This document shows positions 522 to 12,145 of a DNA stretch of 12,294 nt, one piece after another (the first letter of the stretch is position 1; each line of letters begins with the position of its first letter). The translations under genes and the position numbers were made by a program. The DNA is from a bacterium (GTDB lineage: Bacteria > BMS3Abin14): assembly GCA_020352595.1 (NCBI GenBank), contig CP070682.1, positions 1,626,621 through 1,638,914 on the forward strand. Reading direction: 5' to 3'. Under the pieces are notes generated by a model. It was not told where the DNA came from. It searched no databases and worked only from the letters and a program-made list of their open reading frames with translations.

Positions 522-1646
522 TCACTGACGACCTGTGGATGATCCGACCACCAGGTCCGCCATGACGCCGAAGTGGTCCGACGGCTGGAAGCCGTCCACC
601 TTGTCTCCAAGGACGACGCCCCGGGCACCGCCGGGAGCAGGCGCGACTCCCGGGCCGAGGAAGATGTAATCGATGCGGCGGCGCCTGTCCACGAACAGGG
701 AAGCCATGTAGTCGAACCCCTTCCTCACCCTGCCCCGGGCGTCCACCTGATTCATGGAAAAAGCTATGTTGTCATTGAGCACCGGATCCCAGGTCCAGAC
801 CTCGCCCTTCGGTCCTGCTCCGGGCAGGTCCTCCATCACATCCCTGAAGCCTCCCTGCTCCCGGAACAGGCCCATCTCATCCGCATCGGCATCGGCGTTG
901 AAATCCCCGGCCACGATCAGGGGCACCGCCGGCGGCAGACCGCGGATGCGCTCCAGGAGATTCCGGACCTCCTGCACGCGCCGCTCTTCTCTTTGCCGCC
1001 ACTTGAGTATGCCCTCATGGACCTCGGCCTCCGAGGCGTCAGCGTGGGCCAGGCCACGGGCACGCAGTTCATCCGCGTCATCGGGAAGACGCGGTGTCGC
1101 GACGAGGTGGACATTGAGGAGGTTGACCGGCTGACCGTCAACGGTGATGCGCCCCGGGAGCACGATGATGGTTTCGTCCGCGTGCAGGGTCAGGATATCC
1201 GTGTGGATCCCCGGCGAGCCGGACAGCTTCCACGAGCCTGTCTTACGCAGGGAGAGTTCCGGTCTTGCCAGGATGCTCACCCCCTCCTTCAGGTTGAGGG
1301 GGGGGCCAAGGGGACCGATCTTCAACCCGGCGTTGACCACCTGGTGGATCTCGACCATGTCCAGCGCGGACGCAAGCCGGGTCGAATATGGGCCGACCGG
1401 GTTGGCCTCCTGTACGAAGACAACGTCGGGTGCCAGGCTCCTGAGCTGGGTGACCAGGGAATGGAACCTCGAACCCCTCGCCTCGGCGGACTCGTATTCC
1501 CCCATCCGGGCAAACCCGTTGTAGTCCAATCCCGACCAGACGTTGATGGTGATGACCCTCAGAGCGCCTCCTCGAACCTGCGGGGGGTTGACCATGATCG
1601 CGAAAAGTAGCAAAAGAAGCAGTGGACCCCTTTTCATGGGGCCCAT
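522..1646 (-). CDS. Exported endonuclease/exonuclease/phosphatase (EEP) family protein
   Basis: 374-residue protein of the metal-dependent EEP fold (DNase I / sphingomyelinase / inositol-phosphatase superfamily), which hydrolyses phosphodiester or phosphomonoester bonds. The family motifs appear in order: TINVW (N35), VFVQE (metal ligand E80), NVHL (H180), GDFN (D248, N250), RIDYIF (D326) and the C-terminal PSDH (D357, H358). The catalytic set therefore looks complete. Residues 1-26 form a signal peptide: a basic start, a run of leucines, then a small-residue region near QVRGGA, so the enzyme acts outside the cytoplasm. Two close ATGs exist (residues 1 and 4) and neither has a convincing ribosome site; either keeps the signal peptide. 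The substrate cannot be told from sequence: nucleic acid, phospholipid head group or sugar phosphate are all possible. The gene is divergent from the giant activase gene, with 253 bp between start codons, so the two may share regulatory DNA. Confidence 0.88.
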   Translation of the reverse strand: MGPMKRGPLLLLLLFAIMVNPPQVRGGALRVITINVWSGLDYNGFARMGEYESAEARGSRFHSLVTQLRSLAPDVVFVQEANPVGPYSTRLASALDMVEIHQVVNAGLKIGPLGPPLNLKEGVSILARPELSLRKTGSWKLSGSPGIHTDILTLHADETIIVLPGRITVDGQPVNLLNVHLVATPRLPDDADELRARGLAHADASEAEVHEGILKWRQREERRVQEVRNLLERIRGLPPAVPLIVAGDFNADADADEMGLFREQGGFRDVMEDLPGAGPKGEVWTWDPVLNDNIAFSMNQVDARGRVRKGFDYMASLFVDRRRRIDYIFLGPGVAPAPGGARGVVLGDKVDGFQPSDHFGVMADLVVGSSTGRQ

Positions 1647-1814: not shown

Positions 1815-1830
1815 TGGTACGGTCCTTGCT
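1815..1830 (+). promoter_or_regulatory. Sigma-54 (-24/-12) promoter of the giant activase gene
   Basis: TGGTAC-GGTCC-TTGCT matches the RpoN consensus TGGCAC-N5-TTGCW with one change (C to T) in the -24 box. The invariant GG (1816-1817) and GC (1828-1829) are exactly 10 bases apart. The predicted transcription start is near 1841, giving a leader of about 59 bases. Sigma-54 promoters need an AAA+ activator, and one with its kinase is encoded at 6334-9145. Confidence 0.7.
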
Positions 1831-1859
1831 ATTCGAGGCGCAAAGGCGCGGGAAATGGG

Positions 1860-1887
1860 TCCCTCGCCGCCGGCACCGTGAGGGAGG
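1860..1887 (+). promoter_or_regulatory. Leader hairpin overlapping the Shine-Dalgarno sequence
   Basis: TCCCTC (1860-1865) is complementary to GAGGGA (1880-1885), with a 14-base GC-rich loop. The 3' arm overlaps AGGGAGG at 1881-1887, the strongest ribosome-binding sequence before the giant ORF. Pairing would mask part of the site. A second GAGG at 1890-1893 stays free and suits the ATG at 1900. Confidence 0.35.
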
Positions 1888-1899
1888 TTGAGGATCGTG

Positions 1900-4800
1900 A
1901 TGGAAACAGACGACAAGGCAACCAGCAGATCCCTGGGGATCTGTCTCGGCGCCAGCACGCTGAGCATCGTCGAGAGGGTCAACGGAGACCTGAGCATCTC
2001 CCGCCGGACCCACGGCGGACAGGTGGGGGACACTGTCCAGGAGCTCATCAACGCCTCCGTCCCTGCCCGCATCGGCATCACGGGACGGAAGTTCCGGGAC
2101 CTCATCAACCTGGAGACCATTTCCGAGCCCGAAGCCGTGGAGCTGGCCTACCAGTCCATCCGGTCCAAGTATCCCGGTGTGGAAAGCATCCTTTCGGCGG
2201 GGAGCGAATCCTTCCTGCTTTACACCCTCGACTCCCGGGGCAAGATCAAGTCGGTCTACACGGGTAACAAGTGCGCGGCGGGCACCGGGGAGTTCTTCCT
2301 CCAGCAGCTCAAGCGCATGAACCTGGAAGTGACCGACGCCGTGGACATCGCCCGGGACTCCGAACCCTACGGCATCGCTCACAGGTGTTCCGTCTTCAGC
2401 AAGAGCGACTGCACCCACGCCCTCAACAAGGGTGTCGGAAGGGACCGTGTGACGGCGGGACTCTGCAGGATGATGGCCGTCAAGATGCTGGAACTGCTCA
2501 AGTCGTCCAAGGCGAAGAGCACCATGGTGGTGGGTGGCATCAGCAAGAACCCGGTGGTCATGAAACATCTCAGGGAACTGTTCCCGGACACGATCATCCC
2601 CGAGGAGGCCCCCTACTTCGAGGCCCTGGGCGCCATGCTGTGGGCAGAACAGAACGGCCCGACCACGGAACCGCGCGGGGACCTTATCCGGCAGTCCTAC
2701 AACCCCTTCTCCACCCTCCCCGCCCTGGAACGGGGAGTGGCCAGGGTGACCTTCAAGGAGAGCGGGAGAGGCGACTTCTACGACGGCGAGTACGTCATCG
2801 GACTGGACGTTGGCAGCACCACCACCAAGGCCGTCCTGGTTCGACGGGACAACCAGGCCATCGTCGCCAGCGAGTACCTGAGGACCCTGGGGGATCCCGT
2901 AGGGGCCAGCAGGAAGTGCTACGAGGCTCTTGTGAAACAGCTGCCGGAGGGTCACGAGCCTGCCATCGTCGGGCTTGGGGCCACCGGGAGCGGAAGGCGT
3001 CTGGCCGGCCTGCACAGCCTGACCGACAACGTCATCAACGAGATCATCGCCCACGCCGTGGCAGCCGTCTATTACGATCCCGAAGTGGAGACCATCTTCG
3101 AGATCGGCGGACAGGACGCCAAGTACACCTTCATCACCAACATGGTCCCCACGGACTACGCCATGAACGAGGCCTGCAGCGCCGGCACGGGGTCGTTCCT
3201 CGAGGAGGCGGCGCTGGAATCCTTCGGCATCGACACCCTCCAGATCGCCGACATCGCCGCCCAGTCCGCCGCCCCCCTCAATTTCAACGACCAGTGCGCC
3301 GCCTTCATCGGCAGCGACATCAAGACCGCCATCCAGATGGGCACTTCCCGTGAGGACAGCGTGGCGGGGCTCATCTACTCCGTCTGCATGAACTACCTCA
3401 ACAGGGTCAAGGGCAACCGCTCAGTGGGGCAGAAGATCTTCATGCAGGGCGGAGTCTGCTACAACAGGGCCGTCCCTCTGGCAATGTCCATCCTCTGTGA
3501 CCAGGAGATCGTGGTGCCGCCGGAGCCGGGTCTCATGGGAGCCTTCGGAGCGGCCCTCGTGGTGCTGGACCGCCTCGAGAAAGGCCTGACGGAAAAGCAG
3601 GCCTTCGACCTCGGCGCCCTCGCTTCACGGGAGATCGTCAAGGGCAAACCGTTCACCTGCGCCGGAGGGCGCGAAAAGTGCGACCGTAAGTGCCACATCG
3701 AGCGCTACGTCATCGACGGCGTAACGTACCCCTTCGGCGGCATATGCGACATGTACTACAACATGAAGCACAGGACCGAGAGGACGGATGAGGAATTCGA
3801 TCTTGTCCGGGTCCGCGAGGAGCTCGTTTACGGTTATCCGGGCCAGGATGCCTCGGGAGAGGCAAAGTCGGTGGGGATACCGACCTCCCTGTACACCGCC
3901 ACGGCTTTTCCCCTTTACCGGCACTTCTTCACCAACCTCGGGGTGAGGGTCGTGCCCAGCGAGAAGATGGACCCGGAGGGGATGGAGGCGGCCGCCTCTC
4001 CATTCTGCCTGCCGGTCCTCCAGTCCCACGGATTCCTTCAGAACCTTCTCGGGATGGAGACGGATTTCATCTTCGTCCCACACGTGAGGTACGCCTTCGC
4101 TCCCGGCGATGACGGCGTCAACTGCACCTGCCCGCTGGTGCAGGGCGAGCCCTACTACCTCAATGCTGCCTTCAGGGAAGAGATCGGCTCCAGGCTTCTG
4201 AGCGAGGTGCTGGACTTCAACAACCTCCCCGAACTCAGGGCCTCCTTCCTGCGCCTGGGTCGGAAACTGGGGCATTCCCGGAAACGGTCCGGGGAGGCCT
4301 TCGACAGGGCCTGGCTCGCCTTCCAGGCCGTCCAGGATGAGATGAAGGAGCACGGGCGGCGTTTTCTGGCCTCCCTGCCCCCGGAGGACACGGCCATCGT
4401 CCTGTTCGGGCGCGCCTACAACGCCTTCACCGGAGTCGGGAACATGGGCGTCCCGCGCAAGTTCGCCAGCAGGGGTTACAGGATCATCCCGTACGATTTC
4501 CTGCCCCCCGAGGCCCTCGAGGGGACCAGCGTGGAGAAGATGTACTGGGCCTCAGGTCAGGGCATCCTCAAGGCCGCCGAACTGGTGCGGGACACGCCCA
4601 ACCTGTACGGTGTGTACGTGACCAACTTCAGCTGCGGGCCCGACTCCTTCCTCATCGAGCGTTTCAGGAACGTCATGGGTCACAAGCCCTTTCTCACCCT
4701 GGAGTTCGACGCGCACACCGCCGACGCCGGCGTGGACACGCGCGTGGAGGCTTTCCTGGACGTCATCAGGGGTTATGGTCAGCAGGGGTTAAGGCAGGGT

Positions 4801-6183
4801 GAAGACTCCGGTTTCCAGCCGGCCCGCATCGAGAAGAGCGGAAAAACCGTAAAGCTGCGCACCGGCGACAACAGGATCGTTGACCTGACGGATCCCAACG
4901 TCCTCATGCTCATCCCCTCCATGGGGGAACTGGCGTCGGAGTTCTTCGCCGCCACCATGGGGTACCTCGGGATCCGGGCCAAGGCCTTCCCCGCGCCCGG
5001 GCCGCAGGAGATGGCCCTCGGCAAGACCGTCACCTCCTGCAAGGAGTGCCTCCCCTTCCTGCTGACGACCGGGTCCCTGCTGAAATTCCTGAGGGAACAC
5101 GATGGTGAGGACGATGTCCTGGTGTACTTCATGCCGGAGACCAGCGGGCCGTGCCGCCTTGGCCAGTACAACGTGGCCATCAGTGAGCTCATCGACAAGC
5201 GCAGGATCCCCAACCTGGCCGTCCTTTCCCTCACCAGCGAGAACGGTTATGCAGGCATGCCGGAGGAGTTCACCGCGCGGGCGGTCCTCGGCATGATCAT
5301 CGCCGACGGCCTCGACGACGTGCGCGCCGGCATCCTGGCCCTCGCGGAGGATGTCCCGGGCGCCCTCCAGGCCCTGGAGGGCACCTGTGACAGGATGAAG
5401 CGATCCCTTCAGAGCCTGAGCAGCGAAGAGGTGGTGGCTCAGCTCGAGGAGGAGATGGCCGCTCTCTCGGCTTTCAGGACCAGGAACCCCATCACGGACG
5501 CCGTCAAGATCACACTGGGTGGGGAGATCTACGTCCGCAAGGACGATTACTCGAGGCAGCACCTCGTGGAGAAGCTGGCGGAAAAGGGAGTGGTGGTCCA
5601 GACTGCTCCCATCTACGAGTGGTTCAAATACAACATGATGTGCGTGGCCACGGGGGAATCCCATGGGGCGACCTTCAGGGAACGGATCAATGCGCGCATC
5701 AAGAGCCACTTCCTCGACCGAGCCGAGGGCAGGATCCACGGCATCCTGCGTCGCTCGGGATTCTTCGACGGACACCGCATCGACATGAGGTTCCTGCTGG
5801 AAAGGGGAAGCTCCCTCATCAACCCCAAGCTCACAGGCGAGGCCATCCTCACCGTGAGCGGGACGCTCAAGGAGATCGGCGACGACACGCACGGCGTCAT
5901 CACCATAGGGCCCTTCGGATGCATGCCCTGCAGGATCGCCGAGTCCATCCTCAACCACCGTGTTCACGACGAGAAGGCCAACTTCTCGGCGAAAAACAAG
6001 GATTTCTGGATCCGGCACGGTGACAGCCTGTCCCTGCCCTACCTCCACATCGAGACCGACGGCAACGCCTTCCCCCAGATGGTGGAGGCAAGGATAGAGA
6101 GCTTCGTCCTCTCCGCCCAGCGGCTCAAGGAAGAACTGGCGGAAAGAAAAGGTTCAGGGCCCGGGGAAAGAGGCAGGTCCTAG
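1900..6183 (+). CDS. Giant fused acyl-CoA dehydratase activase / double-cubane-type reductase
   Basis: 1427-residue single chain of the BadF/BadG/BcrA/BcrD/HgdC activase superfamily, fused to a 2-hydroxyacyl-CoA-dehydratase-like half (domain content like COG1924 + COG3580 + COG3581). Activases use ATP to push electrons from a [4Fe-4S] cluster to low-potential clusters in the partner. Domain 1 (about 10-255) keeps the cluster cysteines (C125 in KCAAGTG, C163 in RCSVFSKSD), but its ATP motifs are altered: GICLGAS at 13-19 and SAGSES at 99-104. Domain 2 (about 299-560) is canonical: GLDVGSTTTK 301-310, EIGGQDAK 401-408, C426 in ACSAGTG, C466. A Cys-rich linker follows (C587, C594, C598, C616). 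The reductase-like half carries C703, C742/C744, C912, C1047/C1050, C1085 and C1341/C1344. No signal peptide is seen, so it is cytoplasmic. ATG 1900 is preferred (GAGG 6 bases upstream); GTG 1897 or TTG 1888 are alternatives. The substrate is unknown and no acyl-CoA genes lie nearby. Confidence 0.88.
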   Translation: METDDKATSRSLGICLGASTLSIVERVNGDLSISRRTHGGQVGDTVQELINASVPARIGITGRKFRDLINLETISEPEAVELAYQSIRSKYPGVESILSAGSESFLLYTLDSRGKIKSVYTGNKCAAGTGEFFLQQLKRMNLEVTDAVDIARDSEPYGIAHRCSVFSKSDCTHALNKGVGRDRVTAGLCRMMAVKMLELLKSSKAKSTMVVGGISKNPVVMKHLRELFPDTIIPEEAPYFEALGAMLWAEQNGPTTEPRGDLIRQSYNPFSTLPALERGVARVTFKESGRGDFYDGEYVIGLDVGSTTTKAVLVRRDNQAIVASEYLRTLGDPVGASRKCYEALVKQLPEGHEPAIVGLGATGSGRRLAGLHSLTDNVINEIIAHAVAAVYYDPEVETIFEIGGQDAKYTFITNMVPTDYAMNEACSAGTGSFLEEAALESFGIDTLQIADIAAQSAAPLNFNDQCAAFIGSDIKTAIQMGTSREDSVAGLIYSVCMNYLNRVKGNRSVGQKIFMQGGVCYNRAVPLAMSILCDQEIVVPPEPGLMGAFGAALVVLDRLEKGLTEKQAFDLGALASREIVKGKPFTCAGGREKCDRKCHIERYVIDGVTYPFGGICDMYYNMKHRTERTDEEFDLVRVREELVYGYPGQDASGEAKSVGIPTSLYTATAFPLYRHFFTNLGVRVVPSEKMDPEGMEAAASPFCLPVLQSHGFLQNLLGMETDFIFVPHVRYAFAPGDDGVNCTCPLVQGEPYYLNAAFREEIGSRLLSEVLDFNNLPELRASFLRLGRKLGHSRKRSGEAFDRAWLAFQAVQDEMKEHGRRFLASLPPEDTAIVLFGRAYNAFTGVGNMGVPRKFASRGYRIIPYDFLPPEALEGTSVEKMYWASGQGILKAAELVRDTPNLYGVYVTNFSCGPDSFLIERFRNVMGHKPFLTLEFDAHTADAGVDTRVEAFLDVIRGYGQQGLRQGEDSGFQPARIEKSGKTVKLRTGDNRIVDLTDPNVLMLIPSMGELASEFFAATMGYLGIRAKAFPAPGPQEMALGKTVTSCKECLPFLLTTGSLLKFLREHDGEDDVLVYFMPETSGPCRLGQYNVAISELIDKRRIPNLAVLSLTSENGYAGMPEEFTARAVLGMIIADGLDDVRAGILALAEDVPGALQALEGTCDRMKRSLQSLSSEEVVAQLEEEMAALSAFRTRNPITDAVKITLGGEIYVRKDDYSRQHLVEKLAEKGVVVQTAPIYEWFKYNMMCVATGESHGATFRERINARIKSHFLDRAEGRIHGILRRSGFFDGHRIDMRFLLERGSSLINPKLTGEAILTVSGTLKEIGDDTHGVITIGPFGCMPCRIAESILNHRVHDEKANFSAKNKDFWIRHGDSLSLPYLHIETDGNAFPQMVEARIESFVLSAQRLKEELAERKGSGPGERGRS

Positions 6184-6220
6184 CACCGCGGAGAGGCGAA
6201 ACTCAGATCTTAAAGAATAT

Positions 6221-6324
6221 GGGTTTGGGTATCTGGTATCTGGTGTCTGGTGTCTCGGAAGCACCTGATCAAAAGAACTTTCCGCCCATGCACCCATGCA
6301 CCCACGCACCCGGGCACCAGGCAC
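6221..6324 (+). repeat. Modular intergenic repeat, copy A (heptamers, core, octamers)
   Basis: Between two convergent genes. Four tandem heptamers (GGTATCT twice, then GGTGTCT twice) fill 6228-6255. A core follows, containing GATCAAAAGAACTTT (6267-6281). Then come four octamers of CCCAYGCA type (CCCATGCA twice, CCCACGCA, CCCGGGCA) at 6285-6316. It ends with CCGGGCACCAGGCAC (6310-6324), nearly identical to 9567-9581. The 15-base core recurs exactly at 12049-12063. No terminator hairpin with a T-tract is visible at either gene end here. Confidence 0.7.
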
Positions 6325-6333
6325 TATTCCCCC

Positions 6334-7695
6334 CTACAGCCCGTACTCCTTGATCTTCTTCTGAAGGGTCCTGCGGCTGATGCCGAGGATCTCGGCGGCG
6401 CGGGTCCTGTTCTGCCCCGTCTGCTCCAGGGCCTTGGTGATCAGCCTCTTTTCAGCGGACCTGGCGACGTTGTCCACCCGATCCCTGAAATCGGCGTCAT
6501 GGCCGGCCCTTGCCACGCCCCTGACCTCGACGGGCAGGTCCTGCAGGGAAAGTTCTCCCTTCTCCGAAAGAAGCACGAGCCTCTCTATGACGTTCTCCAG
6601 CTCCCTCGTGTTGCCCGGCCAGTCGTATGCGAGGAAAGCCGCCATGATCCCGGGCGGTATGGCACGGATCTTCTTTCCGTACCTTGACGCGAACCTTTTC
6701 ATGAAGTGGTCCGCCTGCGAAGGGATGTCGTCCCTTCTTTCCCGGAGAGGAGGTATGGCGATGGGGATCACGTGGAGCCTGAAATAGAGATCGGCCCGAA
6801 AGTCACCGCTTTTGACCATGGCCTGCAGATCCCTGTTGGTGGCCTCCACGATGCGCGTGTCCACCCTGATGGTCCTGACGCCCCCCACCCTCTCGAAGGC
6901 CCTGTCCTGGAGGAAGGTCAGCAGCTTCACCTGGACCGGGCCGGGGATCTCCCCGACCTCGTCCAGGAAGAGGGTGCCGCCGTCTGCGATCTCAAAGCGC
7001 CCGGGCTTGGAGGAGACCGCCCCGGTGAAGGCGCCCTTTTCGTGTCCGAAGAGCTCGCTCTCCACGAGGTTCTCGGGAACGGCCGCGCAGTGGACCTTGA
7101 TGAAGGGCGCCTCCCTCCTCCCGCTGCCAAGGTGGATGGCCCTGGCGACGAGTTCCTTCCCCACCCCCGTCTCTCCCGTGATGAGGACCGTGGAGTCCGT
7201 GGGCGCGATCTTTGACACGGTGCGGAAGATCTCCTCCACGGCCCGAGTGGAACCGATGAACCGGGTATCGAACTCCTCCTCCCGGTGGAAGAAATCAGAG
7301 ACGATGTCCCTGTTTTGTTCCGACTCGGTGAGAGCCATGGAGATGACGTTGAGCAGTTCCGCCTCGTCGACAGGCTTGGAGATGAAATCAAAGGCTCCGC
7401 CCTTAATGGCGGTGACGGCCGCTTCCACGTTGCCGTGCCCGGTGATCATGACGACGGGGACCTCCGGTCTTCTCTCCCTGCAGTAGGAGAGAAGGTCCAT
7501 CCCGCTCCTGCCCGGCATCTTGAGATCCGTGATGATCACCCTCAGATCGTCCCCCTCCACCGCCGGGACCGCCTCGTCGAAACTGCCGGCCGTGACCACC
7601 GCGTACCCTTCCCGTTCCAGCATGTCCTGGAGGACCACCCGCACGTTGGCGTGATCGTCGACGACGAGGATCTTCATTCTGGCGTCTGTCTTCAT
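6334..7695 (-). CDS. Sigma-54-dependent NtrC-family response regulator
   Basis: 453-residue transcription activator with the full three-domain plan. The receiver domain (about 7-120) has acidic pocket D13/D14, phospho-acceptor D57, T85 and K107. The AAA+ central domain (about 147-375) has Walker A GETGVGKE 174-181, the sigma-54-contacting GAFTGA loop 221-226 and Walker B TLFLDE 241-246. The C-terminal Fis-type helix-turn-helix ends in NRTRAAEILGISRRTLQKK. All residues needed for phosphorylation-controlled ATP hydrolysis and open-complex formation at sigma-54 promoters are present. The ATG at 7695 has GAGGAG five bases upstream; the in-frame GTG two codons earlier is less likely because it would overlap that site. 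It lies 64 bp downstream of the sensor kinase gene on the same strand and converges with the giant activase gene, whose promoter is sigma-54 type and so a candidate target. Target genes are inferred, not shown. Confidence 0.95.
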   Translation of the reverse strand: MKTDARMKILVVDDHANVRVVLQDMLEREGYAVVTAGSFDEAVPAVEGDDLRVIITDLKMPGRSGMDLLSYCRERRPEVPVVMITGHGNVEAAVTAIKGGAFDFISKPVDEAELLNVISMALTESEQNRDIVSDFFHREEEFDTRFIGSTRAVEEIFRTVSKIAPTDSTVLITGETGVGKELVARAIHLGSGRREAPFIKVHCAAVPENLVESELFGHEKGAFTGAVSSKPGRFEIADGGTLFLDEVGEIPGPVQVKLLTFLQDRAFERVGGVRTIRVDTRIVEATNRDLQAMVKSGDFRADLYFRLHVIPIAIPPLRERRDDIPSQADHFMKRFASRYGKKIRAIPPGIMAAFLAYDWPGNTRELENVIERLVLLSEKGELSLQDLPVEVRGVARAGHDADFRDRVDNVARSAEKRLITKALEQTGQNRTRAAEILGISRRTLQKKIKEYGL

Positions 7696-7759
7696 GAACA
7701 CTCCTCGAGGCGCGAGGTGCCGCCATCCCTCACGTGTAACGTTCCCGGCATCTCCCTGC

Positions 7760-9145
7760 TCAGACCGGCAGGAGGACGGTCACCTTCGCGCCCGTGGGCT
7801 GGACGTTCTCGATGGACACGGCTCCTCCGTGGGCCTCCAGGATCCTCGCGATGACGGCGAGCCCCAGACCGAAACCGGAATCCTTGGTGGAAAAGAACGG
7901 CTCGAAAACCCGGGCCTGGACCTCCTCCGGCACACCCGGCCCGTTGTCGACGAACTCGATGGCCAGGGAACCGTGGTTCAGGGAGGTGGCGATGCGAAGG
8001 CGCCCGTCCTGCCCGCAGGCTTCCGCGGCGTTGCGAAGCAGGTTGAGGAAGACCTGCTTGAGCAGGGAAGGGTCCGCCTGGACCGCGGGGAGGCTGTCGT
8101 CCAGGTTCAGGTCGATCTCCAGCTTAAGGTCCTCCAGGTTGGTCAGACGTACCGTCTTGCGCACAACCTCGTTGACCTTCACCGGTTCCTTCTCGATGAT
8201 CAGGGGCCTCGTGAAATCCTGCAGGCTTGCCAGGATGCCCTCGATCCTCTGGAACTCCTCCACCAGGATGTCCTGGTACTGCCTGATCTTTTCCAGGTCC
8301 AGCTTCTTTATCAGGTCTGCCCGAAGCCGGGTCAACCCCTTGATAGCGGTGAGCGAACTGCGGATCTCGTGGGCGATCTCGGCGGCCATGGAGCTGAGCA
8401 GATCCAGCTTCTTCCTCGTCTGGGCAAGCTCGTCGAAGGCCTTCCTGTGACGGTACAGACCGGCAGCCAGGACCATGGGCCCGAGGACGCTCCCCAGGTG
8501 TCCCAGGGGGGGAAGGGAGAGCTGCATCTTGTGGAACAGGTCCGTCAGGCCGGTGGCCACCTGGATGATGATGGCCAGCAGGATGAACTTGAGCCAGCTT
8601 CTCTCCTTGCCCTCCCCTGCCCTCTCCATGGCCGACGCCACCATGACCATGCAGGACAGGAGGAAGGGGAAGAGCAGGAAGAAGAACACGAGGTTCCAGC
8701 CGATGCCGACCCAGAAGCGGTAGATCAGGTCACTGAGGGGCGTAAGGACGGGTGTCAGGGCGAGGGGGAAAGCGGCGGCATAGGCCAGGATGATCCAGAA
8801 CCGGTTCTTCTCCGCGCGTTCCACCAGGATCGAGGTGAAGTGGAAGAGGGAGGCCACGGCGAGGCAGGAGCCCAGGGAAACCAGCTTTTTCCAGGGCGTC
8901 TGGTGGAAGGCACCCGGCGGCAGCCAGATGGGATTCCCGGAGGCGAAGATCATGAAATCCGCGAAGTTCCAGAACGCCACCCCCAGGCACACCAGGGAGA
9001 AGGTCACGTAGAGTGTCTCCCGGGACGTCCGCGCCAGAGCCAGGAGGGCGAAGGCGAAGTTCAGCACCGCAGCCGTGAGGGCGATGTAGGCGTTGACCGT
9101 CTCGAAACTGAGAACGCCCGGGAACAGCCTGGTCGCTTCCGGCAT
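7760..9145 (-). CDS. Sensor histidine kinase with 7TM N-terminal region
   Basis: 461-residue membrane kinase, presumed partner of the response regulator 64 bp downstream. About seven hydrophobic helices (roughly 17-37, 46-68, 87-107, 115-135, 143-171, 185-202, 213-231) resemble the HisKA_7TM sensor region, with only short loops outside the membrane. A short coiled linker leads to the H-box EIAHEIRSSL with H259. The ATPase domain shows the N-box (N368-N372, NLLRNAAEA), G1 DNGPG (400-404), F-box FEPFF (414-418) and G2 GFGLGL (424-429). The H-box has SS where most kinases have NP, but the phospho-acceptor is intact. The start at 9145 has AGGAG about 8 bases upstream; the frame stays open 84 codons further, but that stretch is Pro/Gly/Arg-rich and not family-like. 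The signal is unknown; a membrane-embedded sensor with little periplasmic mass suggests a membrane or lipophilic cue. This is inference. Confidence 0.92.
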   Translation of the reverse strand: MPEATRLFPGVLSFETVNAYIALTAAVLNFAFALLALARTSRETLYVTFSLVCLGVAFWNFADFMIFASGNPIWLPPGAFHQTPWKKLVSLGSCLAVASLFHFTSILVERAEKNRFWIILAYAAAFPLALTPVLTPLSDLIYRFWVGIGWNLVFFFLLFPFLLSCMVMVASAMERAGEGKERSWLKFILLAIIIQVATGLTDLFHKMQLSLPPLGHLGSVLGPMVLAAGLYRHRKAFDELAQTRKKLDLLSSMAAEIAHEIRSSLTAIKGLTRLRADLIKKLDLEKIRQYQDILVEEFQRIEGILASLQDFTRPLIIEKEPVKVNEVVRKTVRLTNLEDLKLEIDLNLDDSLPAVQADPSLLKQVFLNLLRNAAEACGQDGRLRIATSLNHGSLAIEFVDNGPGVPEEVQARVFEPFFSTKDSGFGLGLAVIARILEAHGGAVSIENVQPTGAKVTVLLPV

Positions 9146-9404: not shown

Positions 9405-9428
9405 GGGAAGGGAAGGGGGAAGGGAGGG
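9405..9428 (+). other. G-quadruplex motif
   Basis: Five G-runs (3, 3, 5, 3 and 3 bases) separated by AA, AA, AA and A lie on the plus strand, which fits the strict G3+N1-7 rule with a run to spare. It lies between the divergent kinase (-) and MFS (+) genes. Folding potential is read from sequence; a role is not shown. Confidence 0.6.
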
Positions 9429-9529
9429 TGCGTGAAGCGTGCGTGCGTGGAGGGTGGGTGAGTGAGTGCGCGGGCGCAGGGGCGCAGGGACGCAGGGGCG
9501 AAGAGCTTTTCAGGTCCTTTTTGAAATTT
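9429..9529 (-). repeat. Modular intergenic repeat, copy B (inverted)
   Basis: Read on the minus strand from 9529, it starts AAATTTCAAAAAGGACC, continues through a palindrome-like GAAAAGCTCTTC core, then octamers (CCCTGCGT, CCCTGCGC twice) and CACTCACTCACCCACCC. This parallels the order seen at 12030-12125. On the plus strand the octamer units are GCGCAGGG at 9474-9481 and 9482-9489, then ACGCAGGG at 9490-9497. It is more diverged than copies A and C. Confidence 0.6.
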
Positions 9530-12015: not shown

Positions 12016-12145
12016 GATTTCAAATTTCAGATTTCAAATTTCAAGGAGGATCAAAAGAACTTTGCTCCCATGCTCCCTTTCGCTCCTTCGCCCACGCACC
12101 CACGCACTGACTCACTCACCCACGCATTCACCCCTCCAGCCCATA
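12016..12145 (+). repeat. Modular intergenic repeat, copy C (heptamers, core, octamers)
   Basis: GATTTCAAATTTCA occurs twice in tandem at 12016-12043; read at period 7 this is four heptamers (GATTTCA/AATTTCA), the same 28-base length as the heptamer block in copy A. Then comes AGGAG and GATCAAAAGAACTTT (12049-12063), identical to 6267-6281. A C-rich tract and octamers follow (CCCACGCA twice from 12091, then CTGACTCA, CTCACCCA, CGCATTCA). It lies upstream of the TetR promoter. Confidence 0.7.

Follow-up and report, generated by a model that had tools for sequence, protein, structure and literature searches.

A likely sigma-54 promoter upstream of a giant fused activase-reductase gene and its dissociation from a neighbouring two-component pair

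Introduction

When a promoter of the activator-dependent class lies close to a gene for an activator of the matching type, do the two form a circuit, or do they merely share a place on the chromosome? The question is raised by a stretch of 12,294 nucleotides from a bacterium of the BMS3Abin14 lineage (assembly GCA_020352595.1, contig CP070682.1, positions 1,626,621 to 1,638,914 of the forward strand), referred to here as the window, in which a sigma-54-type site precedes a gene for a 1427-residue fused activase-reductase, and an NtrC-type response regulator and a membrane histidine kinase are encoded beyond that gene. An earlier reading, made from the letters of the window alone (the sequence-only reading), had joined these elements into a self-contained, signal-dependent switch. 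We favor, with moderate confidence, a different answer: that a real, lineage-specific sigma-54 promoter serves a widespread enzyme of the benzoyl-CoA reductase (BCR)/2-hydroxyacyl-CoA dehydratase (HAD) type, and that the neighbouring pair reflects local gene order more likely than a dedicated circuit.

Results

The site occupies positions 1815-1830 of the forward strand, TGGTACGGTCCTTGCT (TGGTACG-N4-TTGCT), with the exact GG-N10-GC spacing of a −24/−12 promoter, and stands 69 bases 5′ of the ATG at 1900 that opens the 1427-residue reading frame; a transcription start near 1841 is predicted from the spacing. Its single mismatch to the consensus given in two reports (PMC4641369, PMC12316311) is a T in place of C at position 4. 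The pattern TGGYACGN4TTGCW was matched once in the window, against an expectation of 0.01 and a match in 1 of 200 shuffled sequences, and five times on both strands of the genome, against once for the reversed control pattern. The looser pattern TGGTAC-N5-TTGCT gave only four genomic sites versus two for its own control, which indicates that the G at position 7 is of consequence. Of the remaining four consensus sites in the genome, two are some 0.5-0.6 kb away from an NtrC-type AAA+ domain, and a random place has a 1.4% chance of lying within 1 kb of such a domain, which suggests that the genomic set of sites is credible and largely real. The site that the sequence-only reading had noted upstream of the activase gene is confirmed, and with a consensus-grade sequence in the right place and orientation, and RpoN encoded in the genome (PF04552, 205.8 bits), 1815-1830 is likely a sigma-54 promoter. 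The consensus sites at G000:C1:445172 (locus L175) and 937096 (locus L003) lie directly after NtrC-type regulator genes and likely serve local targets.

The promoter and the pair were then compared across 12 genomes, all of one family and obtained by a phylum search, which are designated G000 (the genome of the window) to G011. Activase matches were present in 10 of the 12, that of G003 being short and distant and that of G008 a C-terminal remnant, and eight orthologues had a readable N-terminus (G000, G001, G002, G004, G005, G007, G010, and G011). The regulator-kinase pair was found in G000, G001, G005, and G011, together with a kinase fragment in G008 that is cut by a run of Ns. No sigma-54 site was detected in the activase upstream regions of G001, G005, and G011, all of which have the pair; conversely, G004, which is without the pair, carries a sigma-54-like site, TGGCACA-N4-TTGCC, at −66 of its orthologous activase gene. 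Because promoter and pair dissociate in both directions, we regard the promoter as a trait of the lineage and the pair as no constant partner of it. An alignment of the family upstream regions contained no homologous block around the site.

Gene order gave a similar result. The window is exactly one contig, bounded on either side by a run of 100 Ns, in an assembly that is a concatenated metagenome-assembled genome (MAG) of 2.16 Mb and 73.7% completeness, so that nothing past its ends is known to adjoin it. Joins of 100 Ns also occur in the examined stretches of the "one-contig" genomes G000, G001, and G008 (L172 8522-8621; L173 6916-7015), and distances across them are therefore meaningless. 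Within N-free stretches, activase and pair adjoined in none of the six informative relatives (G001, G002, G004, G005, G010, and G011), where G004 offered only 1.06 kb of flank and G005 was viewed from the regulator's side; G007 was uninformative. The pair occurred in four of the eight genomes with the activase and, as the kinase fragment, in one of the four without it, which is no association (Fisher p = 0.58; G008 has the C-terminal remnant of the activase only, and the short, distant match of G003 was not counted). The co-conservation of activase, regulator, and kinase by which the switch was to be checked was accordingly not borne out. When nine of the 12 sigma-54 AAA+ proteins matched in G000 were compared with the regulators of six relatives, among those listed (14 of 16 for G004), six had reciprocal orthologues of 71-80% in G004, and the regulator in the window had none.

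These comparisons bear directly on a dedicated, lineage-specific switch, in which a membrane signal would pass through the kinase (7760-9145) and the regulator (6334-7701) to the promoter at 1815 and so to the activase-reductase. Such a switch has to accommodate the pair without the site in three genomes and the site without the pair in another, the absence of adjacency in the six relatives, the convergent, non-operonic arrangement of the genes, and the finding that no exact dyad with 5-base arms is common to the activase upstream region and eight other upstream regions, those of the pair's own loci included; in G011, moreover, it is a PLD-family gene and a beta-barrel gene that precede the pair. 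Speaking for it, and weighing against the reading that we favor, are several observations. Activase and pair adjoin within one N-free contig in the window and coexist in the four genomes that have the complete pair, and the consensus-grade site lies 4.9 kb from the AAA+ domain of the regulator, where the chance that a random place falls within 6 kb of an activator AAA+ domain is 6.7%. Since the two sites that adjoin activator genes elsewhere in the genome seem to be real pairs, adjacency here deserves some weight; furthermore, with the site in only two of the eight family orthologues, its conservation is thin. On balance, we consider the dedicated switch unlikely. Its farther-reaching form, in which kinase and NtrC-type regulator would, through sigma-54, render all-or-none the output of the cell's lowest-potential reductant by a one-polypeptide reductase of the double-cubane type, strikes us as somewhat less probable still.

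We extended the survey to 91 activase loci (89 distinct, as two contigs are included twice), 66 of the 89 having 1.6 kb or more of 3′ flank and the remainder testing adjacency only partly. A regulator of the NtrC class was near the activase in two of the 91, neither of them orthologous to that in the window. Regulator-like matches near the activase were seen in L026 (38%, full length) and L048 (44%, AAA+ and helix-turn-helix [HTH] parts), a match to the receiver part (28%) lay on the 5′ side of the activase in L160, and kinase-core matches were found in L039 and L023 (24%). Upstream regions were taken where the match began within 15 residues of the protein start and at least 150 bases lay upstream; this gave 85 regions from 88 loci (78 of 80 named loci, L005 and L007 being omitted as contigs of G007 and G010, plus 10 under G handles; window excluded). 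They contained four near-consensus sigma-54 sites versus 0.7 expected and two in the reversed control. Given these counts, and with six of the eight family orthologues lacking a site, sigma-54 control is no trait of the gene family.

The same figures lend some substance to the possibility that the site at 1815 is unused, being a chance match or a non-productive RpoN site upstream of a gene that is transcribed from a sigma-70-type promoter. TATAAT-like boxes, read by eye and not scored, precede the activase genes of G001, G002, and G010, which may use promoters of that type, and widespread intragenic binding of sigma-54 in Escherichia coli is claimed in the title of PMC4591121. However, no sigma-70-like promoter was found in a scan of positions 1600 to 2000, and the site is one of only five in the genome and is correctly placed and oriented. 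We hold an unused site to be rather unlikely, and retain the reading of a functional, lineage-specific promoter.

The gene at 1900-6183 (forward strand, complete) encodes a single-chain fusion. Two ASKHA/BadF activase domains, at about residues 10-250 (Pfam match 96-249) and at residues 299-555, are followed by a Cys-rich linker (587-616) and by two domains resembling HAD and double-cubane cluster protein (DCCP), at about residues 625-960 (including DUF2229) and 990-1415. The activase part has two cysteines that we take to be ligands of a cluster. Both HAD-like domains gave fold matches to subunits of 2-hydroxyacyl-CoA dehydratases, double-cubane proteins, and benzoyl-CoA reductases, the first clearly above unrelated entries (14.3 versus 7.5) and the second less so (11.8 versus 8.5), with sequence identities of only 9-15% in the fold alignments. 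At an E value of 0.001, PF06050 (HGD-D) matched nothing in G000, the fused gene included; DUF2229 matched instead. At least 573 relatives were present in genome contigs, and the protein is widespread in anaerobes. Its domains and folds fit an ATP-driven low-potential reductase, as the sequence-only reading had called it, and the protein looks like a putative BCR/HAD-type single-chain activase-reductase of a widespread, known kind. In the literature surveyed, we found no biochemical work on the giant fused proteins, which is not to say that none is in print.

The regulator gene (6334-7701, reverse strand, likely ATG at 7695) is complete, and its product, one of 12 sigma-54 AAA+ matches in the genome, has a receiver domain, GETGVGKE at 176, GAFTGA at 223, LFLDE at 244, and a Fis-type HTH. 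The kinase gene (7760-9145, reverse strand) encodes 461 residues from an ATG at 9145, with HisKA and HATPase_c domains and intact H, N, and G boxes, behind a putative seven-transmembrane (7TM) sensor. Every motif attributed earlier to the regulator is thus present, and so is a complete kinase; the 7TM assignment is plausible on weaker grounds, with six distinct hydrophobic segments above threshold, a possible seventh below it, and a match to 7TMR-DISM_7TM of 16.9 bits (E 0.006), below the Pfam cut-off of 29. Among the kinase orthologues, L169 and L170 scored 22.2 bits (E 1.5e-4) and 19.8 bits with the same model, and the fragment in L171 gave no match; a PHROGs scan of the kinase returned generic kinase matches only. 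The kinase gene lies upstream of the regulator gene in the same direction, and the two are convergent with the activase gene, hence in no common operon with it; no terminator was found between the convergent activase and regulator genes. Two genes of the same strand precede the pair in G011, one of the PLD family and one for a beta-barrel outer-membrane protein (L170 209-5461); in G008 a homologue of this PLD gene and the kinase fragment are divergently oriented (L171 8200-11899). Envelope functions are a possible role of the pair.

On the other side of the promoter, a perfect palindrome, TCATGGGGCCCATGA, at 1634-1648 is a candidate activator site. It overlaps the start of a divergent gene (522-1646, reverse strand) for an endonuclease/exonuclease/phosphatase-family protein with a hydrophobic N-terminus. 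The genome holds no second exact copy, and the 42 places matched genome-wide with up to two mismatches formed no convincing set (the reversed pattern gave 2, but reversal makes a poor control for a palindrome). We found no support for the palindrome as an activator site.

An Rfam scan of the window returned no match, and base composition is even along it. The window contains tandem arrays of period 7 (6228-6255, 9410-9424, and 12017-12044) and period 8 (6285-6311 and 9472-9500). Short period-7 arrays whose units keep varying are common across the family (for example, L159 1221-5975, L156 7171-7284, and L171 2418-5842); counted at a score of 36 or more, the 12 family loci (176,910 bases) have 52 arrays of period 7, compared with 2, 8, and 4 of periods 6, 8, and 9, respectively, and 78 other activase loci (1,159,558 bases) have 27 of period 7 (10 of them in Desulfonema magnum, L044) and 42 of period 9. 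A few neighbouring arrays, in L171 and L164, are reverse complements of each other.

Discussion

In the reading that we favor, RpoN polymerase would sit at 1815-1830 and, as expected for its class, remain silent until an NtrC-type activator opens the promoter. Judging from the folds and the invariant cysteines, the two ASKHA domains of the product would hydrolyse ATP, clamped by a shared [4Fe-4S] cluster, and thereby drive low-potential electrons one at a time into the Fe-S clusters that the two HAD-like domains would carry. The regulator-kinase pair would be a two-component system that travels separately, and six other activators of G000 are also found in G004, the genome that shares the promoter without the pair. 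Of the switch proposed at the outset, a likely promoter, an encoded RpoN, and a reductase-like enzyme survive; the role of the neighbouring regulator as the activator does not fare well, given the dissociation, the lack of adjacency, and the lack of a shared dyad. The arrangement is probably an ordinary one. The dissociation of promoter and neighbour nevertheless offers a clear comparative test and guards against inferring a circuit from adjacency alone. Giant fused activases occur in hundreds of anaerobe genome contigs. That two lineages have a sigma-54 promoter before the gene suggests that in some hosts the enzyme is not made until a signal calls for it; identifying the activator would therefore point to the substrate.

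The closest regulatory parallel is the hadAIBC-acdB-etfBA operon of Clostridioides difficile, with HadI as activase and HadBC as dehydratase. According to the accessible text of two reports, SigL binds a hadAIBC promoter fragment (PMC6615313), expression of hadAIBC falls below 0.001 of the wild-type level in a sigL mutant (PMC7438776), and LeuR is the probable activator (PMC7438776, PMC6615313). In that operon, an ATP-dependent activase and its Fe-S dehydratase are expressed from a sigma-54 promoter, a documented case of such control for genes of this kind. The remark in the sequence-only reading that it knew of no described pathway with this pairing is too strong as regards sigma-54 and activase. 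A kinase, an NtrC-type regulator, and a fused activase in just this combination did not turn up in a literature search that was thin on subscription papers; activase terms are also absent from the main text of the sigma-54 regulon papers PMC4641369 and PMC12316311. The C. difficile proteins are separate subunits encoded in an operon, whereas the gene in the window has all parts in one polypeptide, and LeuR is not termed a two-component regulator in the accessible text of PMC7438776 and PMC6615313, whereas the neighbour in the window is a response regulator with a kinase.

In Geobacter, the two-component pair BamVW is described as controlling genes of aromatic degradation (PMC6678401, PMC11497800, accessible text), and we set it beside the pair in the window by description only; the second of these sources also reports sigma-54 for anaerobic aromatic genes in Geotalea. 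As for the enzyme, sequence and fold matches to PDB entries liken it to DCCP with its reductase and to the Bzd/Mbd-type benzoyl-CoA reductases, which likewise combine an ASKHA activase with HAD-like Fe-S subunits; the protein in the window differs from them in being fused two-plus-two in one chain and in its low identity in the fold alignments. An architecture like the one described here, with two YjiL-type ATPase domains fused to DUF2229, has been noted in two Ruminococcus MAGs (PMC11362221).
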